Origin: a bacterium
GTDB lineage: Bacteria; Bdellovibrionota_C; UBA2361; RFPC01
Direction of reading: 5' to 3'
Length of the DNA: 64,000 bases
Assembly (NCBI GenBank): GCA_030428205.1
Contig: JAUIBK010000001.1
Span: 62,001 to 126,000 of the forward strand
A model generated the notes under the pieces. It was not told where the DNA came from, did not search any database, and worked only from the letters and a program-made list of their open reading frames with translations. Of this stretch, positions 37,826-46,712 are shown piece after piece (position 1 is the stretch's first letter; every line of letters begins with the position of its first letter). The position numbers and the translations under genes were made by a program.

Positions 37826-39006
37826 TGTTGCACTATCTGAGCGAGTTCTTCGTAGTTCTTATTGTGATGAAAATCGACTTCAGTACGATCTCGGAGCATA
37901 GAGATGGTGTCGTTATAGCCAGCTTCGATGAGTCCTGTGAGGTAATCCTCATCGAGAGCAACATAGGTTGCCGCCTCAAACGCGAGGGCTTCGCCGATTT
38001 TGCTTTTCAGGAGTTTAAAAACTGGCCAAGTTGGTCCAACAGCACGCATAAATTTTCCTGTGGAACCTCCCACTGCGTCTTTTAATATAGGTCCAAATGG
38101 CTTTGGATTTCGTATGACGAAGGTGTCAGGGGGACGCATACAAAATGTTTTAAATTCTGCAGGAACTTCCCAGTCGGGGCGTGTGTCATGAGCTTCGTTG
38201 TACTCATCAAGCCAGAAGTGTCTGCCTGAGATATCAACAATAATTACCCGATCGGCACCGAGCCGTGCTGCTGGGTCTACAGGTACATTCTGAGAGATGC
38301 CTCCATCAACAAGCCGAAAAGACCCCATGTCAGTATCAATCTCTACAGGGGGAAGTACTGAGGGAAGAGCTGCTGAAGCAAAGCCGTGCTTGGCGGTGAG
38401 AGAGGGCACTTGGCAGATTTCAAACGAAGCTCCTTCGAGAAGATCTTCTTGTACATGAGTCTGAGTGCTGAGAAAGAGCAGCGGCTTACGCTCTTCTCCT
38501 TCAATGGTGGTCATGACTCCGATAGACTCAAGCTTTGGGTGGCGTTGTTTTGGACCGAGCCCTCCGTGAGATAGGATTACATCGTCGACCTCAGTCATAA
38601 GAGGAGTTGGATCAAAGATGGCGTCTCCAGTTGGCTTTGGTCCAGGAGACATGTATTGCACCATTGCCATTCGCACGGCGCGAAAGAAAGCTCCAGATGG
38701 TGAGCCAGCAAAGGTGTTACGAAAGTTACGTTTTTGCCAGAGAGATTCGAGCTCTTCAACAGCTGATGTTATGCCGTCCTTTAGGCATGCAGAAAAGACA
38801 AGGCCATTGACAGCGCCAATGCTACTTCCCATTACAATTGAAACGTGGTGTTTTTCACGCTTAAAAAAAGGCAAAAGAGCTTTGAGCGCTCCAGCTTGAT
38901 ACGCAGCGCGAGAGCCTCCTCCTGAGAGGACAAGCGCGAGCTTCATTTCGTTTCCTTCCGTGGCTGAGCGTACCTCTATGCCGTCTTTGTTTGTTGCATC
39001 GTTCAT
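37822..39006 (-). CDS. patatin-like phospholipase
   Basis: The 394-residue product has the Ser-Asp dyad of patatins: the oxyanion loop GGGSRAAYQAGAL, the nucleophile elbow GSSIG, and DGGISQNVPV with the catalytic Asp. It probably hydrolyses acyl groups from membrane lipids. There is no signal peptide. The start could instead be ATG 38946 (MKLALVLSGGG), which has a good GGAAGGA site; the longer form also has GAGG 8 bases upstream. It is coupled to the downstream membrane glycosyltransferase. Confidence 0.9.
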   Translation of the reverse strand: MNDATNKDGIEVRSATEGNEMKLALVLSGGGSRAAYQAGALKALLPFFKREKHHVSIVMGSSIGAVNGLVFSACLKDGITSAVEELESLWQKRNFRNTFAGSPSGAFFRAVRMAMVQYMSPGPKPTGDAIFDPTPLMTEVDDVILSHGGLGPKQRHPKLESIGVMTTIEGEERKPLLFLSTQTHVQEDLLEGASFEICQVPSLTAKHGFASAALPSVLPPVEIDTDMGSFRLVDGGISQNVPVDPAARLGADRVIIVDISGRHFWLDEYNEAHDTRPDWEVPAEFKTFCMRPPDTFVIRNPKPFGPILKDAVGGSTGKFMRAVGPTWPVFKLLKSKIGEALAFEAATYVALDEDYLTGLIEAGYNDTISMLRDRTEVDFHHNKNYEELAQIVQQ

Positions 39007-39258
39007 CGGTTATGCCTCTATCCCCTTATTATCTCACGTCTTTTAGGGAGGAACAGTAGTGAAAATGTCTCTTTCAAATCTATCGCTTATGTTATCGGCG
39101 GTTTATAGTGATGACTTGAGATTTCAGGGGGTTAGGGGCCGGTAAGTGATGCCACGCTGGAGCGTGACGTCCATGAGATTTTCCACAGTAACTACGAAAA
39201 TATTCTATTTTCTTCTCATTTTACCACAAATCCACAATATTGAGGTACCATGTATATA

Positions 39259-39273
39259 TGCACAAATTGTGCA
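39259..39273. promoter_or_regulatory. operator-like palindrome TGCACAAATTGTGCA
   Basis: Two 7-base arms are perfectly inverted around one central base, in an AT-rich region with TATATAT just upstream. It lies about 29 bases before the start of the small secreted protein gene, the right size and place for a dimeric repressor site. A second small dyad, CACGCT/AGCGTG, is at 39153-39166. Confidence 0.35.
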
Positions 39274-39301
39274 GCTATAGGTTTTTGAAGTGTGGCTCAG
39301 T

Positions 39302-39517
39302 ATGAATATGAAAAAATACTTTTTACTTTGTAGCTTGATTGTCTTCCTTGGCGGAATGCAAATGAAAGAGAGCTCTTTGATAGAGGTGGCATACCACGAA
39401 AGGGGAATAGAGGCGCTTCATGCAGTGGCTCGATACCTCCCCCGCCAAGTACAATTACAACTTTTAGGTTACTATGTGTCTAGAGATAAGACAGAGTGGC
39501 GTAGCATTGCTCCGTAG
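39302..39517 (+). CDS. small predicted secreted or membrane protein
   Basis: The product of about 71 residues begins MNMKKYFLLCSLIVFLGG, a plausible signal peptide or anchor. It is followed by a helical basic segment (ERGIEALHAVARYLPRQVQL). The frame extends upstream to a GTG at 39290. There is no strong ribosome site and no recognisable family. It is kept as a gene because of the signal-like N-terminus and the regulatory-looking upstream region. Confidence 0.45.
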   Translation: MNMKKYFLLCSLIVFLGGMQMKESSLIEVAYHERGIEALHAVARYLPRQVQLQLLGYYVSRDKTEWRSIAP

Positions 39518-39536
39518 ATTTTAGTGTGGGAATGAG

Positions 39537-40034
39537 TCAGCCTTGCGCAGTCCTACCGGGGACATCCATCAGAAGTGGTTTGTGGTTTAATTCATAAAGA
39601 AGTTTTTCAATTCCCTCTCGGGGAATGACAAGAGTACTCGTATTCACTAACGGATGGCATTGCAGAGCTTGAGCATTGGCAATAGGACTATCGAGCACGA
39701 GTTGAACCGAGCCCCCCGTATCATTTACAAGAGCGAGCAGTGATACAGATCCTGGTTCAACACCAAGGTGTGTCATAAGTCGTTCGGGTGAGCCCATACT
39801 TAATCTGCTCGTTTCGATACTTTTTGCAAGGGCGTTGAGATCTACCTGCTTTTCATCAGAAACGACGATCAGGAAATGTTGTTTTCCTTTCTTGTCTCGG
39901 ACAAAGAGGTTCTTTGTCTTTGTGCCTGGGAGGTCGGGGATAAGTTCATTGGCTTGTTCGCAGGTGAATACTGGTGGGTGGTCGTGGCGTTTGAATGGTA
40001 TCAGGTGTGTTTGGAGGAAGTTGTAAATGTCCAT
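39537..40034 (-). CDS. ProXp/YbaK-type aminoacyl-tRNA deacylase
   Basis: The 165-residue single-domain protein resembles the prolyl-tRNA-synthetase-associated editing domain. Family features are TKNLFVRDKKGKQHFLIVV, the catalytic-region lysine in that segment, SPERLMTHLGVEPGSVSLLA and HPLVNTSTLVI. Such trans-editing enzymes hydrolyse mischarged Ala-tRNA(Pro) and related errors in the cytoplasm. It stands alone at the edge of the accessory region. Confidence 0.88.
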   Translation of the reverse strand: MDIYNFLQTHLIPFKRHDHPPVFTCEQANELIPDLPGTKTKNLFVRDKKGKQHFLIVVSDEKQVDLNALAKSIETSRLSMGSPERLMTHLGVEPGSVSLLALVNDTGGSVQLVLDSPIANAQALQCHPLVNTSTLVIPREGIEKLLYELNHKPLLMDVPGRTAQG

Positions 40035-40165
40035 GCGATCAGGAAAGTACAGGTTAAGAAGCGATTGCCGTTACAAATGTTTCATATTTTCTATGCGGCT
40101 ACTAAAATCTATTATTATGCTACCGTTCCTTGTAGAAAGTAATGTATGGCTAGCGTTTAAGGGGG

Positions 40166-41074
40166 TTATGTGAGACCAGAAGTCGAGCTCCCTTCACCCT
40201 GTTTATGCACCTTATCGTGTTCTTTCATTTTTTCCAGAGAATATTCGACTAAGATATGGTGAGGAGCATCTTGTAGGTATTTCAGGAGGGGGCCAAAATT
40301 CTTTACGGCGTCAAATAGATGAAAAACCTTTGCAGTTACTATGAGGGATTCAAGATACTTGCCTCTAGAGGTGTCAAAGGCAATTCCGTAAAGCCCTTCA
40401 AATCCCTCTTCGGATATTCCCACGATACCTGTGCTTCCAGAATGTGTGTACCAGCTAAGCATTCCATAGAGTTCGCGATATTCGTGTTCGTATATTGGCC
40501 CGAGAAGTCGAGCTCGATCGTATGTCGACAGACCTGACCAGTGCTCTGGCCAGTCGAGTTTGCCATTCTTATCGAGGCCCCAAACCTTTTGTACTGTAGC
40601 TTCTATTTCGTCCTTCTTACCTGGTCGAGTCACGAAATTTTTCCGCTGATGGCTATGGGCTATTTCTGCATTCTTTAGTTCCGGGTGCTTGAGCTCCAAG
40701 TCATGTATGCGTCTTGCCACGCGATAGCGAGCGACATCAGGAAAGGAGTGATACTTCTCTACAGCGCCAGGAAACTTCTTCGAGTCTGTGAGAACTCGAA
40801 GATCAAGCCATAGTTCGTATAAAGTGCGACAGCAACTTGCCGCCACAGTTGCGTCGAGCACATTGTTCAACCGGGAGAGTGACGCGGCAACAGCATGTGC
40901 ACGATAAAATGTCCCTTGAACTGCGATTTCGAGATCGGTTGCGTTGAGCTGACCGCTGATAAGACGAACCACATTTTCTTGGGCGTAATCGTAGGTCTGT
41001 TTGATGGCGTCGTAGTACGCCCCTAAGAGGTCCGTATTCGTTAAATCAGGCAAGTCTTCTTCGGAATAACTCAT
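40166..41074 (-). CDS. DUF5677-like protein of unknown function
   Basis: The 302-residue protein is mostly helical with no signal peptide. ATG 41074 lies right at the inner edge of a 70-bp repeat copy; the frame runs on to 41125 through the repeat, so the shorter start is preferred. The segment AAS-CCRTLYELWLDLRVLTDS is like the DUF5677 core (R.l.E...dl..l). Codon choice looks like its neighbours. It lies in the accessory stretch and is probably a single-gene insert. The function is unknown; some relatives sit near defence genes. Confidence 0.6.
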   Translation of the reverse strand: MSYSEEDLPDLTNTDLLGAYYDAIKQTYDYAQENVVRLISGQLNATDLEIAVQGTFYRAHAVAASLSRLNNVLDATVAASCCRTLYELWLDLRVLTDSKKFPGAVEKYHSFPDVARYRVARRIHDLELKHPELKNAEIAHSHQRKNFVTRPGKKDEIEATVQKVWGLDKNGKLDWPEHWSGLSTYDRARLLGPIYEHEYRELYGMLSWYTHSGSTGIVGISEEGFEGLYGIAFDTSRGKYLESLIVTAKVFHLFDAVKNFGPLLKYLQDAPHHILVEYSLEKMKEHDKVHKQGEGSSTSGLT

Positions 41075-41077
41075 GGT

Positions 41078-41147
41078 GCATAACGGTTTTATTGACCACC
41101 CTATCTTATATTTTCCCTGATGCAAGGATACTCCGCCATAAGGAAAC
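41078..41147 (+). repeat. ~70-bp accessory-region repeat, copy A
   Basis: Runs from GCATAAC to GGAAACT and shares with copies B (42286) and C (43845) the blocks AC-CTA-CTTAT, TTTCCC, ATGCAAG and GGAAA. The gene on its left begins 4 bases away on the minus strand. See the finding on cassette-like boundaries. Confidence 0.7.
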
Positions 41148-41182
41148 TATGAAAAACCCAAGTCGGTCGAAGGGCTGTATCT

Positions 41183-41425
41183 TTAATCGCTGATTGTCCA
41201 TCCTTTGTAGCGCTCACAGCGATACTTGCTCTTGGGAAACTTCACTTCAAGTGCTTCAACCACTTCTTCGCAACCTTCCTCGTTATCTGCAAATCCGTGG
41301 ACTCTAATTACCGGATCCCAGTCTCCAGAAAATCTACTAAGCTTAGATAGCTCGTAATCAGACTTATCTGATTCACAAGAACTGCAACAGAGTAACACGG
41401 CGAGTAAACAAGTTAGCCTCAGCAT
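41183..41425 (-). CDS. small lipoprotein of unknown function
   Basis: The 80-residue product is taken from MLRLTCLLAVLLCCSSC (lipobox CSSC). The frame is open upstream to 41470, but that would bury the signal peptide. The mature part has three cysteines and motifs VIRVHGFADNEEGCEEV and YRCERYKGW. No family is recognised. It lies between repeat copy A and the DUF3800-like gene, all on the minus strand. Confidence 0.55.
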   Translation of the reverse strand: MLRLTCLLAVLLCCSSCESDKSDYELSKLSRFSGDWDPVIRVHGFADNEEGCEEVVEALEVKFPKSKYRCERYKGWTISD

Positions 41426-41531
41426 AGGTTGAAAAAATCCCTCGGTATTAAAGCTCATCGTTATGGGCACAGAATGCTTTCAAACAATGCCGCGGGTTGC
41501 CACGTGCTTTGATTCCGTTTGTTAAGCATCT

Positions 41532-42275
41532 TTAAATTTTAGCTGCTTTATCCCTCGGAATCCAATAGGAATTTTTAGTTGGCCAATCCTTGCAGCTATC
41601 AGGATAATAATTGGTTTCTTCTTGAACATATCGACAGATTTCCATCTGTGGGTATTTGTCTTGCGGCACTTCTTGTAGAGCGCAGGTATAAACATATACG
41701 TCAGCTAGCTGCAGAAACCTGCTATGGTGACTGTTCGTGTGATGAACAGTATCAATAACGTTAGTAATTGTTCTTCTAAGGGCATATTCTGTTTTGTAAT
41801 GGCGATAGTGGTTAAGAGAGTCGATCTTGCTGGTTCGCTTCTCCGGGTGACTGTCTGCAATTAGTAGACCTAGGCTATCTTTCGATTTTAAGTATCCATC
41901 TAATTTCTCGGTGAAGAACATGAAAGCTTGGTCTGATAAGTCTTTAGGGAACTGTATGTACTTTGGATTGACTTTAATCTTTATTTTGCCAATCTGTTCG
42001 CGATAGTCGTCAATGACTTTTATCAATTCTTTGTATAAGTCCAGTCTTTTCTCTATTTTATGTCCCTTGTAAGGCCCCTTCCCGTGAATGATATCTTTGG
42101 CATGAAACTCTGTATCTTTTGATAGTGCGATACTACCGAAGTAACTTTTCGAGATAGATGAGAGTTTGTTGTCTATATCGAGACAGACCTCTTCAGGGAA
42201 CGCCAAGCCGCAAAGCCATTCAAATGGCTGATTGTCTCCATTATATTTGACTTCATCAAAGTAAACTAAGTACAC
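41532..42275 (-). CDS. DUF3800-like protein
   Basis: GTG start with no visible ribosome site. The 247-residue protein has an acidic N-terminal motif (YFDEVKYNGDN), a central LLIADSHPEK and the C-terminal HHSRFLQLADVYVYTC, matching the DUF3800 pattern of spaced Asp residues (RNase-H-like fold proposed for the family). Members often occur on mobile or defence-linked DNA. The gene fits tightly between an inverted pair of GATGCTTAAC sequences (42283-42292 on the plus strand, and its complement at 41521-41530), only 1 and 7 bases from its ends. Confidence 0.7.
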   Translation of the reverse strand: MYLVYFDEVKYNGDNQPFEWLCGLAFPEEVCLDIDNKLSSISKSYFGSIALSKDTEFHAKDIIHGKGPYKGHKIEKRLDLYKELIKVIDDYREQIGKIKIKVNPKYIQFPKDLSDQAFMFFTEKLDGYLKSKDSLGLLIADSHPEKRTSKIDSLNHYRHYKTEYALRRTITNVIDTVHHTNSHHSRFLQLADVYVYTCALQEVPQDKYPQMEICRYVQEETNYYPDSCKDWPTKNSYWIPRDKAAKI

Positions 42276-42285
42276 GAGGCGAGAT

Positions 42286-42358
42286 GCTTAACCGTTGTAT
42301 GAACTACTCTATCTTATTCTTTCCCATATGCAAGAACACTCCCTCGTCATGAGGAAAT
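42286..42358 (+). repeat. ~70-bp accessory-region repeat, copy B
   Basis: Begins GCTTAAC and ends in GAGGAAAT, in the same orientation as copies A and C at roughly 70 percent identity by eye. It directly precedes the start of the DUF3800-like gene on the minus strand. With copy C it brackets the Y1 transposase locus as direct repeats. Confidence 0.7.
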
Positions 42359-42378
42359 CTTGGCTGAGTCGGCTCCCC

Positions 42379-42490
42379 TGAGTCTGGTGGGTGGTGGGTG
42401 CCGGTGGGTGTCAACTCTGGTGGGTGCCGGTGGGTGTCAACTCTTCCCCCCTGAGTCTGGTGGGTGCCTGAGTCTGGTGGGTGCCAACTC
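42379..42490. repeat. G-rich tandem repeats upstream of the transposase
   Basis: A 26-base unit is perfectly duplicated (42393-42418 and 42419-42444). A second motif, CTGAGTCTGGTGGGTG, recurs at 42379, 42451 and 42468. The strand is rich in GGTGGG runs and could form G-quadruplexes. It sits 80 bases before the Y1 transposase, where REP-type targets would be expected. Confidence 0.7.
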
Positions 42491-42566
42491 ACCTACCTAA
42501 AAGCAGCACCAAATAAGAGCAACCAAACACGCAACTTTCCGTTTCAATCGACGACTCTTGAGTGCT

Positions 42567-43562
42567 ATGGCAAGACCTAGACGCCAAATATACTCCCAAC
42601 AGGTATACGAGATCTGCATGCGCACATCGCGGGGACTCCCCTTTGTATGCACCAAGACGCTAAAGACCATCATGGCAAGCGTTATGGCTCGCGTACAGCG
42701 TGATGAGAAGGTAACGCTGTGCCATTTTGTGTGGATGGGAAACCATGCCCATATCATCATAGTAGTAAACGATACTGCTCAGTGTGTGCGCTTTTACGGG
42801 GAACTTCAAAAGCAGCTAACAGATGCTATGAAGAGACTCCTTGGCTTTAAGCACCTCAATCTATGGAAGAAAAATGGCACTTCGGTTGTCAGGTATTGTG
42901 ACGTGGATACTATCGTAGAGCGTATAGCGTACCTCTATGCCAACCCTGCTAATGCCAACCTTGTTGACTGTATAGAGAGGTATCCAGGGCTTAGCTCGTG
43001 GAAAGCTTTTAGAGAGGCTCTTAGTTCTGTTCTTGCAGAGCACTCATCGGGCATCCCTTGGATTAGAGCTCCTTTTATATCGAAGCTATCTAGTCGCTCT
43101 CTCACTGAGGCTCAAGACAGAGCTTGCTCAACGAAGTTAGCCAATAAGGCAAAAGTGCGCCACGCTCTTACTCTTCGTCCCAATGCGTGGTTTTCTGTAT
43201 TTGGAATAGAAGAGGAGCAAGAGATTGAAGAAGTAAATACCCGTATTGTAGAGAGGCTTAGAGAGTTTGAGAGTGAAGCTCGGGTCAAGAGGGCTCTAAA
43301 GGGGTGGAAGGTAAAGGGGACTAGAAGGCTTCAGGAAGAAGCTATTAGTCTTGAGCATGCTCCTAAGGAAGATTCTGTTCGGATATATGTCTACTCTATT
43401 GTGAAAGAGATTCGAATTCAGATGTTAGAGGAGTACACGGAGTTTTGTAGGGCGTGTTCTCATTGTTATGACAGGTGGAAACAGGGCGACTTTACTGTGG
43501 ACTGGCCCCCTGGAGCGCTTCTTCCTTGTGTGCCGCCTACTGCTAATTACTTTCATTGCTAG
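42567..43562 (+). CDS. REP-associated-type Y1 (HUH) transposase
   Basis: The 331-residue protein starts at ATG 42567 (an in-frame TTG lies at 42558). The HUH motif is in HFVWMGNHAHIIIVV, and the likely catalytic tyrosine is in RIAYLYANPANANLV, both typical of the IS200-like/RAYT superfamily that nicks single-stranded hairpins. A C-terminal extension of about 170 residues is helical and basic and not recognised. It stands alone without IS ends, as usual for RAYTs, with G-rich tandem repeats upstream and a 26-bp direct repeat downstream. It appears intact. Confidence 0.85.
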   Translation: MARPRRQIYSQQVYEICMRTSRGLPFVCTKTLKTIMASVMARVQRDEKVTLCHFVWMGNHAHIIIVVNDTAQCVRFYGELQKQLTDAMKRLLGFKHLNLWKKNGTSVVRYCDVDTIVERIAYLYANPANANLVDCIERYPGLSSWKAFREALSSVLAEHSSGIPWIRAPFISKLSSRSLTEAQDRACSTKLANKAKVRHALTLRPNAWFSVFGIEEEQEIEEVNTRIVERLREFESEARVKRALKGWKVKGTRRLQEEAISLEHAPKEDSVRIYVYSIVKEIRIQMLEEYTEFCRACSHCYDRWKQGDFTVDWPPGALLPCVPPTANYFHC

Positions 43563-43736
43563 AGATTTCCTCATCTTGCTTGTAGGGGGGTATCTACCGC
43601 TTCGAAAAATGTCTCTTGCAGAGTCTCCCAGCCAACTTTAACTCTCCTTTTCTACCCCATTCCTCAGATCGTAGTGCTCGATTTTTCCCTACTCTTGAGG
43701 ACTATGATCTATGACTAATTTCTTCCACTCCTTTCC

Positions 43737-43802
43737 GATCAGTTGGCGCGCACTAGTTCGCTGGGGGTTCGCTGGGGATCAGTTGGCGCGCACTAGTTCG
43801 CT
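43737..43802. repeat. 26-bp direct repeat
   Basis: 43737-43762 is repeated exactly at 43777-43802, with 14 bases between. Each unit starts GATCAGTTGGCGCGCACTAG. It is adjacent to repeat copy C and downstream of the Y1 transposase. It may be a duplicated target or recombination site. Confidence 0.7.
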
Positions 43803-43844
43803 TAAGCAAGTCCTATCTTCATTTTTTACCTAAGAGTTTAAAGC

Positions 43845-43919
43845 GGATAACAGTTACATTAACCACTCTACCTTATATTTCCCTCCATGCAAGAAAACTG
43901 TCGTAGGCATGTGGAAACT
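43845..43919 (+). repeat. ~70-bp accessory-region repeat, copy C
   Basis: Runs from GGATAAC to GGAAACT in the same orientation as A and B. Unlike A and B, no intact minus-strand gene starts at its left end; only a six-codon frame is left before the 26-bp direct repeat. Confidence 0.65.
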
Positions 43920-44020
43920 CCAAGTAGTTTCAGTGATATCTTCTCTTTCTTTGGTGAGGAAACTCAAGGAAACTGAAGGAAGCCGGGTGCTAGTTTCCTT
44001 GGAGCGAGGAAACTGAAGAC

Positions 44021-45823
44021 CTATTGCTCAAAATCTCGCACAAACAGCTCTTGTCGAAGATAGACAAACCTCGGCGAAAGTGGCGGAAGATTACTCGCAT
44101 CATTAAAATCAGTATCGTAGTCCCAGTTTCTTCCTGGCGCTGTGTATTGTGGAGAGCCGTAAACCCATGCGCCATTTACGTGTTGTGGGTTATTGAGACT
44201 TACAAACGAGCCGCGATAGTTCAGTGTACGCCCTGACCATGATTCGTGAAAGCGAGGGTAGTTTTCAAGCCCCCCGTTGTATCCACCACCTTGCCCACCA
44301 GCTCCCTCAATACCGCCAGTAGAGTCAGTTCCAGAAAGAAATGCAGCGTTGATTGTTGTGTTTGAGGCAACGCGTGAACTAAGCGAAGAAGTACTCAGTG
44401 AATCATTGAGATTCCAGTTGTTTGAAAGGACATTGATTGAATCACACAAGATAGCTGCTGGGATTTTATTTGTCGCATTATAGTTGCCAGCTGTATAAAA
44501 TGCTTGGTTGCTGACCACGGTCATCCCTACAACATCTGGCGCAGAGCCGTCTGTGGATTGTAGCTCTGAGGCGTTTCGTACTCGTACTCCGTACGTATTT
44601 ATCCCCGCAGAGTTTGGTCCATCGACGGTAAAGTGAAAGACAAGACCTCCTTCACTTGTGTCATCGAGGGGTAATCCTTCTCCCAACCAATTGGTTGTAT
44701 GAAGGCAATCGAGAAGTCCTTGCATATCCACTTCAGCCATTTGAATGGTGGCGCTTTCTCTGTTGTTATAAAAAGTAGAGCTTGCTCCAACTGGCAAGCC
44801 GCTGACAGTACCTGTACATCCATGTATGGCAAGGGTCGCGGCAGTATTTATGGAAAGGTCGCCATTCATCACATACATGCCAGTCGAAGAATTGGCATCA
44901 GTGATTGGGTTATTGCTTGCGTTAAGACGGAGCATGAGGCGCAAGTCTGCTTCATCCCAATAGATCTCCCCAGGCGCTGGGTTGAGATCTTCTGGTTCAG
45001 GCACCGTAACCACATCAACTCTGGATTCAACCATGCCGTTCCAGGGAGTAAGATCTCCCTGAGGAACAAGAGTTCGACTTGGACATGACGGAAGAATTGC
45101 TAATGGACTGGTTGGATCGAGTGCGGTGACGGGTTTAGAGTTACATGAAGAGTCATTTTTTCTTCCTCTGTAGAGATCTCCTGCAGTGGTTATCTGGCCG
45201 GCGATGTTGAGTGCATTGTTAGCATTCAAGTAGAGATCTCCATTGGTGTGAATAGGGCCTGAGAGATTCATTGTTGGTCCGGGAAGAATTTCTAAGTCTT
45301 TGTTGTAAAAAGCGACAAACTGGAAAAGTGGTACGAGCCGGCTCTTAAAACGGAGCTCCAGAATAGCTTCAGGGTTCTCTTCGATGTTTTCTGCCACAGA
45401 TCGGACGGTATAGCGGTATTCTTGAGCGTTGAGATTTTGGTACAGCTCTCCAGGAGGAATTGTAATCATAAGCGGATTTCCCGCTTCTTCTTCTACGTAA
45501 TGCATAGCAGTGCGATTGTTTAGTGCGAGAGTATTGCAGATAAAATCTCCGCTTCCATTATTTCCTCCCTCGCATGGATTCGTCGCTGATGGGCTTGTGC
45601 CAGTTGGCCGGTTGTAGCCAATGAATATATCTCGAATCTCCTTGGCTCGGACATTGAGCGCCGCTTCTGCGGTATAAAAACCTGTTGCACTATCTTTCGA
45701 GTGCTTTGTGGTCGCTAATTCAATTTCTGTAAGCGAAAAGTACACCCCGAGGAGAGCTAGGAGTGCTGAAAGAAAGACGTATACTGTAAGAAGTACATAT
45801 CCAGATTCGCTATGTCGGTTCAT
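44021..45823 (-). CDS. PilX-like type IV pilus-associated protein with large C-terminal domain
   Basis: The 600-residue product is taken from ATG 45823 with AAGGTG 6 bases upstream. The N-terminus (MNRHSESGYVLLTVYVFLSA) is a PilX_N-like prepilin segment with one membrane helix, followed by the conserved TGFYTAEAALNVRAKEIRD helix. The remainder is beta-rich with Gly/Asn-rich stretches (SGPIHTNGDLYLNANNAL, IAGQITTAGDLY), as in pilus-assembly proteins of deltaproteobacteria. Last gene of a fimT-pilV-pilW-pilX set. PilY1, which normally follows, is absent; the accessory region begins here. Confidence 0.8.
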   Translation of the reverse strand: MNRHSESGYVLLTVYVFLSALLALLGVYFSLTEIELATTKHSKDSATGFYTAEAALNVRAKEIRDIFIGYNRPTGTSPSATNPCEGGNNGSGDFICNTLALNNRTAMHYVEEEAGNPLMITIPPGELYQNLNAQEYRYTVRSVAENIEENPEAILELRFKSRLVPLFQFVAFYNKDLEILPGPTMNLSGPIHTNGDLYLNANNALNIAGQITTAGDLYRGRKNDSSCNSKPVTALDPTSPLAILPSCPSRTLVPQGDLTPWNGMVESRVDVVTVPEPEDLNPAPGEIYWDEADLRLMLRLNASNNPITDANSSTGMYVMNGDLSINTAATLAIHGCTGTVSGLPVGASSTFYNNRESATIQMAEVDMQGLLDCLHTTNWLGEGLPLDDTSEGGLVFHFTVDGPNSAGINTYGVRVRNASELQSTDGSAPDVVGMTVVSNQAFYTAGNYNATNKIPAAILCDSINVLSNNWNLNDSLSTSSLSSRVASNTTINAAFLSGTDSTGGIEGAGGQGGGYNGGLENYPRFHESWSGRTLNYRGSFVSLNNPQHVNGAWVYGSPQYTAPGRNWDYDTDFNDASNLPPLSPRFVYLRQELFVRDFEQ

Positions 45824-45833
45824 AGAATCACCT

Positions 45834-46712
45834 TTAGTTTGAGAGCACATTGCGTGGAAAGAAACTTGCGTTGAGCGTACGGTCAATATCTTGAAGAGAG
45901 CTTGTGTCTGCTGCGGTGAGAGAGATGTCCACCGATTGAATATCTGTCCAATCATCAGAGGAGCTAAATGAAGTTTTCGTTGTTCCCGTTGACTCCGTAA
46001 TGGTTACTTGGAAATCGCTTACGCCAAAAATAACGTTTTGTGGATTGGCATTATTACCATCGATGATCAGTTGAATATTGTCTCCGAGGAGACGAAAGTG
46101 CCACTGTTCGATGATGTATGAGGCGGCCTGGCCAACTGCATAGTTTTGTGTCCATGAATCATCTGGCTGAACATACATCTGTGTTCCGGTGTCTGTTACG
46201 GCAGAGAACCAGTAGAATTCGCCGAGCTGTGTCGAGGAATCGTAGATGTAGCCGAGAGCTGTCCCTCCAAGTGTTCCAAGGTGCGATGTCCAAGATGTAA
46301 GATTTTGGGTTTGATCTGCGTAGATACACCCTGGTGTTGTGCCACCCGTTGCAAAATAGAGAGGGTCGGTGGAGCCTGTTGTAATCGGTGTACATACTTT
46401 CAATACTTCATCGAGAAGGTTTCTACGTAAGATGAGTTCATCGGGAGCGTCAGATGTTCCGTTTATCAGTTCAATAGCAGGGAAGGAGCCCGAGAGGTTT
46501 TCACCTGCAAGCCGGATATTCATTCCAAGAATATCCATAGCACTTCGTAGATTTTGGTTTACCGCCGTGCGCTTTATGTCGTGGCCAACAAGCTCTCGTT
46601 GTGTGAGAAACGTACTTGCTGCAACCGCAAGCAATACAGATGCTATTCCCGAAGCTACGAGGAGCTCGACAATTGTCATTCCATTAGCGGAGTTTTGTGT
46701 AAATAGTCTCAA
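45834..46712 (-). CDS. PilW-like minor pilin
   Basis: TTG start, since the prepilin site NGMTIVELLVASG lies close behind and no other start leaves a leader. The cut would fall between Gly and Met, with Glu at +5. The hydrophobic helix is followed by a PilW-type domain (NLRSAMDILGMNIRLAGEN) and a beta-rich C-terminus. Minor pilins prime assembly of the type IV pilus. It overlaps the pilV-like gene by 29 bases and precedes the pilX-like gene by 10. Confidence 0.85.
   Translation of the reverse strand: MRLFTQNSANGMTIVELLVASGIASVLLAVAASTFLTQRELVGHDIKRTAVNQNLRSAMDILGMNIRLAGENLSGSFPAIELINGTSDAPDELILRRNLLDEVLKVCTPITTGSTDPLYFATGGTTPGCIYADQTQNLTSWTSHLGTLGGTALGYIYDSSTQLGEFYWFSAVTDTGTQMYVQPDDSWTQNYAVGQAASYIIEQWHFRLLGDNIQLIIDGNNANPQNVIFGVSDFQVTITESTGTTKTSFSSSDDWTDIQSVDISLTAADTSSLQDIDRTLNASFFPRNVLSN

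Follow-up and report, generated by a model that had tools for sequence, protein, structure and literature searches.

Integrons are described as carrying one attI beside one integrase, with the cassettes nearest to this site being the best expressed, and attC sites without an integrase have been termed CALIN (PMC9024848, PMC8618304). In delta-attI-type cassettes, which are described for class 1 and class 2 integrons, where the attI sequence is known, a partial or complete attI between cassettes replaces the attC, with 14-244 nt being kept, and one full attI1-ORF-attI1 case has been reported (PMC12901181). Such cassettes are the nearest layout encountered in the literature to the locus studied here (PMC12901181). 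The locus lies in a bacterial genome (GTDB lineage Bacteria; Bdellovibrionota_C; UBA2361; RFPC01; GenBank assembly GCA_030428205.1), in a stretch of 64,000 nucleotides of contig JAUIBK010000001.1 (positions 62,001 to 126,000 of the forward strand), which is called the window throughout this paper. It comprises three direct repeats, named A, B and C, each of which precedes a coding unit on the minus strand. Here, A, B and C are proposed to be tandem attI-like sites that head former cassettes, forming a decayed array without an integrase, and a probability of roughly 0.58 is given to this reading.

Like the attI of class 1, class 2 and chromosomal integrons, the three repeats are of the double-strand type and have no hairpin, a GTT end, a cassette gene just behind them and an attI-like stretch in their last 20 bases. 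Unlike the attI of known integrons, they have no adjoining integrase, stand three in tandem and show no full-length homology to the four attI of the same genome, three of which likewise lack an integrase. Compared with delta-attI cassettes, A and B may have been copied from C (identity 72-75%), but C is not a proven attI and has no intI beside it; moreover, the repeats are not copies of the attI family of contig C22, where the genome's integrase is located, whereas delta-attI derive from the attI of the same integron. The window is like CALIN in that cassette genes occur without a nearby integrase, and unlike CALIN in that no attC is present. Two other arrays of this genome, on contig C60 and at the start of C22, fit CALIN yet carry attI, which is outside that definition; because CALIN are defined by attC without an integrase, arrays headed by attI would be classed with them. 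In the open literature searched, no account was recognised of chromosomal integrons with multiple (second or additional), orphan, internal, truncated, duplicated or tandem attI, which is weak evidence of absence, as subscription papers were outside its scope.

The repeats are located at 43845..43918 (C, the first in the row), 42286..42357 (B) and 41078..41147 (A), all on the minus strand, and their putative crossover GTTA lies at 43851-43848, 42292-42289 and 41084-41081, respectively. An initial annotation, made from the letters alone, had reported three repeats in one orientation whose minus-strand ends are GTTATGC (A), GTTAAGC (B) and GTTATCC (C). This was borne out by an unprompted repeat search of the window, which returned direct repeats at 41077-41134, 42285-42342 and 43844-43901, and by a 28-base pattern taken from the repeat core, which matched three times in the window where 0.01 matches would be expected. 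The copies measure 67-71 bp when cut at GTTA, and pairwise identity is 71.6-74.6%. The search for further copies that the annotation had proposed was run, and none was found beyond the three in the genome (3.76 Mb, 81 contigs), either with the pattern at up to three mismatches or with a sequence model at E<=10. Repeat matches in relatives were weak, occurring in 14 of 57 genomes at E<=0.1, own genome included, with a best value of 0.011 outside it; exact-pattern scans of genome contigs and viral contigs gave 0 matches, Rfam and tRNA scans gave nothing, and PADLOC gave weak matches only. No repeat-like sequence occurs behind the last unit. C stands directly behind the stop of gene 44021-45955, and a search of 26 other genomes found relatives of this gene in 10; none of eight stretches fetched downstream of it, in a search for an empty site, contained the neighbour genes of the window.

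Cassette-like ends were detected in the unit headed by B. Its DUF3800 gene (41532..42275, minus strand; PF12686, 5.9e-13) begins with a GTG 10 bases past GTTAAGC of B, and 11 bases at the gene start (GTTAAGCATCT) recur as the reverse complement AGATGCTTAAC directly behind the stop (41521..41531, minus strand), where a decayed attC would start. The tight placing of this gene between GTTAAGC and GCTTAAC, already noticed in the initial annotation, was therefore confirmed, and it is singular in the window: among 132 ORFs of at least 80 aa, its 11 complementary bases compare with 6 in each of two others, and the remaining 129 have none of 6 or more. When GTTANNNNN was searched together with its reverse complement 200-2500 bp downstream, exactly one pair was found in the window, namely the DUF3800 unit, and exactly four were found in the part of C22 that was read, all of them at cassette starts and ends. 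The DUF3800 end also retains AGATGCTTAACAAAC, which by eye resembles the 5' ends of attC elsewhere in this genome, while the remaining hairpin is unrecognisable. The DUF5677 gene (40166..41074, minus strand; PF18928, 8e-12), read as the former cassette headed by A, has its ATG three bases past GTTATGC, and its stop overlaps ACATAAC (40165..40171, minus strand), which, as the annotation had stated, matches GTTATGC, six bases being complementary to GTTATG of A.

Two parts of the original description need correction. The units were described as single-gene units, which does not hold for the one headed by B, because a 95-codon ORF (41183..41470, minus strand; lipoprotein-like start by eye, no Pfam match) lies between GCTTAAC and A; it is either the second ORF of this unit or another decayed cassette. 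Nor does it describe the interval from C to B, which contains a transposase on the other strand. The ends were set beside the GTTRRRY of integron cassettes, which GTTATGC and GTTATCC strictly do not fit; the cassettes of the genome's own integron nonetheless use GTTATNN as well. As for the encoded proteins, no relatives of the DUF3800 protein were confirmed in genome contigs and four distant plasmid matches had 24-26% identity, and no relatives of the DUF5677 protein were found in plasmids.

The genome has an integron of its own. One integron integrase scored above the TIGR02249 cut-off (265), with 431.5 bits at C22:138104-139039, and four other matches were far below it; the tyrosine recombinase whose search had been proposed was thus found, on another contig. 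Next to this integrase are an attI and hairpin attC sites that form an array, and an attC model built from three of the C22 attC sites gave 10 matches in the genome at E<=1, located near both ends of C22 and on C60 and C66. When the attI adjoining the integrase was used as a DNA query, four homologous attI were revealed, the one beside intI and three orphans at C22:1804-1987 (85% identity to it), C60:67787-67970 (74%) and C39:701-874 (71%), two of the four thus being on C22, 137 kb apart. All four end exactly at AACTGTTA. No integrase was present in the 8-10 kb read around each orphan. Two of the three (C60 and the C22 start) head arrays of hairpin attC. Behind the third stands a single cassette, with ends complementary over 10 bases by eye, before an insertion sequence cuts it off. 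Inspected by eye, the four attI contain a conserved TTGTTCC..GGAACAA-like inverted repeat near the left end and, upstream of the crossover, TTGAC-N16-TANANT. At the starts of C22 and C39, one and the same insertion sequence end occurs at an identical point inside an attC, and the element looks like an attC-targeting one.

The ends of A, B and C were compared with attI by a matrix of the 20 bases up to GTTA, built from 10 sites lying next to an integrase in genomes of this order (own genome, G003, G007, G011, two in G013, G017, G019, G022 and G026). The crossovers of seven of these sites are backed by end-complementarity, and all seven integrase loci with more than 1.1 kb of downstream sequence show cassette end-complementarity of 8-12 bp. 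When all 271 GTTA sites in the window were scored, C, A and B ranked 1, 3 and 6, and the ranks were the same when the three unchecked sites were omitted from the matrix. With permuted matrix columns, all three copies were among the first six ranks in 1 of 2000 trials, and rank 1 was reached by the best copy in 13 of 2000. It is a modest matrix: built without own or family sites, it ranked the true attI 4-7 of 42-84 in four stretches of the own genome and 1-4 of 26-68 in nine stretches of G019 and G026. An earlier, narrower comparison pointed the same way, with B, C and A at ranks 1, 2 and 4 among the 15 non-attI AACNGTTA sites of 13 stretches. Judged by sequence, the last 20 bases of the repeats resemble attI.

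Orphan and tandem attI-like sites are also present in relatives. The remaining 27 genomes of the order gave 0 matches to the own attI model, and therefore attI either drifts fast or differs in origin. IntI was found in 10 of 28 genomes, own included. When the attI of G019 was used as a query against 13 genomes, four were matched: G019 at seven places (five over most of the query and two over its last 36-39 bases), G026 at four, G022 at one and G016 at one; the integrase matches in these genomes numbered one, one, two and none, respectively. On contig C194 of G019, two attI (1112 and 4054) with a common orientation are separated by 2.9 kb, in which cassette-like genes occur, and share 91% identity over 160 bp; the contig also has weak attC matches. 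Two orphan sites, on G026 C209 and G019 C126, carry a piece of the integrase N-terminus (50 and 29 aa), and at least some orphan sites therefore arose by copying of intI together with attI followed by loss of intI. One stop lies inside the matched stretch of each integrase match in G022 (two matches), G026 and G019; some of these integrases may be broken, or the match may overrun the true end. In G013, two complete intI-attI pairs (C84 and C115) have similar attI regions.

Several observations weigh against A, B and C being attI-like sites of a former cassette array. The window contains no IntI match below E 1.6, neither an integrase nor a remnant of one was found at the locus or in the C62 flanks that were read, and none of the 10 attC-model matches falls in the window, so that no attC is left there. 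The own attI model finds the four attI only, to which A, B and C are not homologous over their length. As for the matrix, three of its 10 sites had too little downstream sequence for complementarity to be checked, B drops when the own site is removed (C, A and B then rank 1, 3 and 12), and the three ranks are not independent because the copies are homologous. Among the units, only six complementary bases, counted from a designated start, are seen for DUF5677, and no end complement was found for the C unit. Finally, attI is normally near a promoter, and a sigma-70 promoter scan did not flag the repeats. By eye, TTGCAT-N16-TAGRGT is common to all three, with at most 7 of 12 consensus bases; it was dropped as a clear sigma-70 promoter because the scan gives it no support, and a promoter within the repeats is possible.

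We infer that A, B and C have been, or still are, recombined by an integrase, and we likewise infer which integrase acted and how the site multiplied. An attI-like platform would have existed in three tandem copies, and cassettes would have entered at the GTTA of each, with the integrase, either the C22 IntI or one since lost, acting in trans. The attC hairpins of these cassettes would then have decayed, and a Y1 transposase would have destroyed the first unit, behind C. As for the suggestion that C may mark a lost cassette, a broken first unit is consistent with the transposase found there. With no integrase in place and decayed attC hairpins, the units are probably fixed genes now, with the platform as their leader. 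Of the first proposal, an integron-like or novel capture system, the integron-like part is supported by the integrase, the attC arrays and the DUF3800 ends, and a wholly novel system is not needed.

The locus taken alone appears as a worn relic, and the wider pattern of interest is one integrase with several attI. It is proposed, more tentatively than the reading of A, B and C and at somewhat below even odds, that such genomes carry a distributed integron: one integrase would serve many chromosomal attI, platforms would multiply to new loci and in tandem, several cassettes would each stand first behind a promoter, and A, B and C would be an old second platform family. If true, several first positions would be available at once, with one detected integrase and four attI here and one integrase and seven attI-like sites in G019, and arrays without an integrase could stay open to new cassettes.

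Other explanations of the repeats have to be considered, and the one that survives best is itself unlikely. The repeats could be a duplicated promoter or leader that co-regulates neighbouring accessory genes, the complementary ends having arisen by chance. Their position directly before two start codons and the restriction of three copies to a single locus agree with this, but the sigma-70 scan gives it no help, and both the 11-base complement of DUF3800, found in one of 132 ORFs, and the attI-like ends would be left unexplained. Slightly less likely still, the repeats could be ordinary sequence used as secondary (attG-type) targets, with three homologous leaders having received off-target cassettes at GTT. 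Insertion off target has been published as a way in which integrase-less arrays arise (PMC8618304), and attG sites are cited in PMC12901181. This explanation requires a prior tandem triplication of the leader, whereas the repeat search found no homologous right target halves, and the attI-like ends would be a coincidence.

It is improbable that A, B and C were attC of a Vibrio-like chromosomal integron, in which the attC are homogeneous, and have since decayed. Their R'-like GTTANNC ends and recurrence between genes would fit, and the initial annotation, which proposed attC covariance models, implied an attC-type spacer role for the repeats. However, none of the three copies folds better than shuffled sequences on either strand, which is expected for attI and not for attC; with filters off, the best attC-model score in 39000-45000 was 7.9 bits (E 2.5); the left end has no AAC-type partner box by eye; and the copies head the units, with none behind the last one. 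A, B and C as attC proper were ruled out by the missing fold and the lack of an attC-model match.

Least probable of all is that A, B and C are parts of a Y1 (REP-type) transposase element, since, although the transposase gene lies between B and C, none of its three other close copies is near such a repeat, its flanks carry other short repeats and A is not adjacent to it; the other copies and its own flanks likewise ruled out the repeats as element ends. The element spans 42375..43802 on the plus strand, with approximate limits taken from flanking short repeats, and its gene (42558-43562), on the strand opposite to C and B, matches NF047646 at 1.5e-9, below the cut-off. Elsewhere in the genome, its close copies have 82-89% identity and are located at L011:3995-4993, C9:26990 and C62:292454. 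Two of the four copies are within cassette arrays, and some copies are flanked by runs of short repeats.

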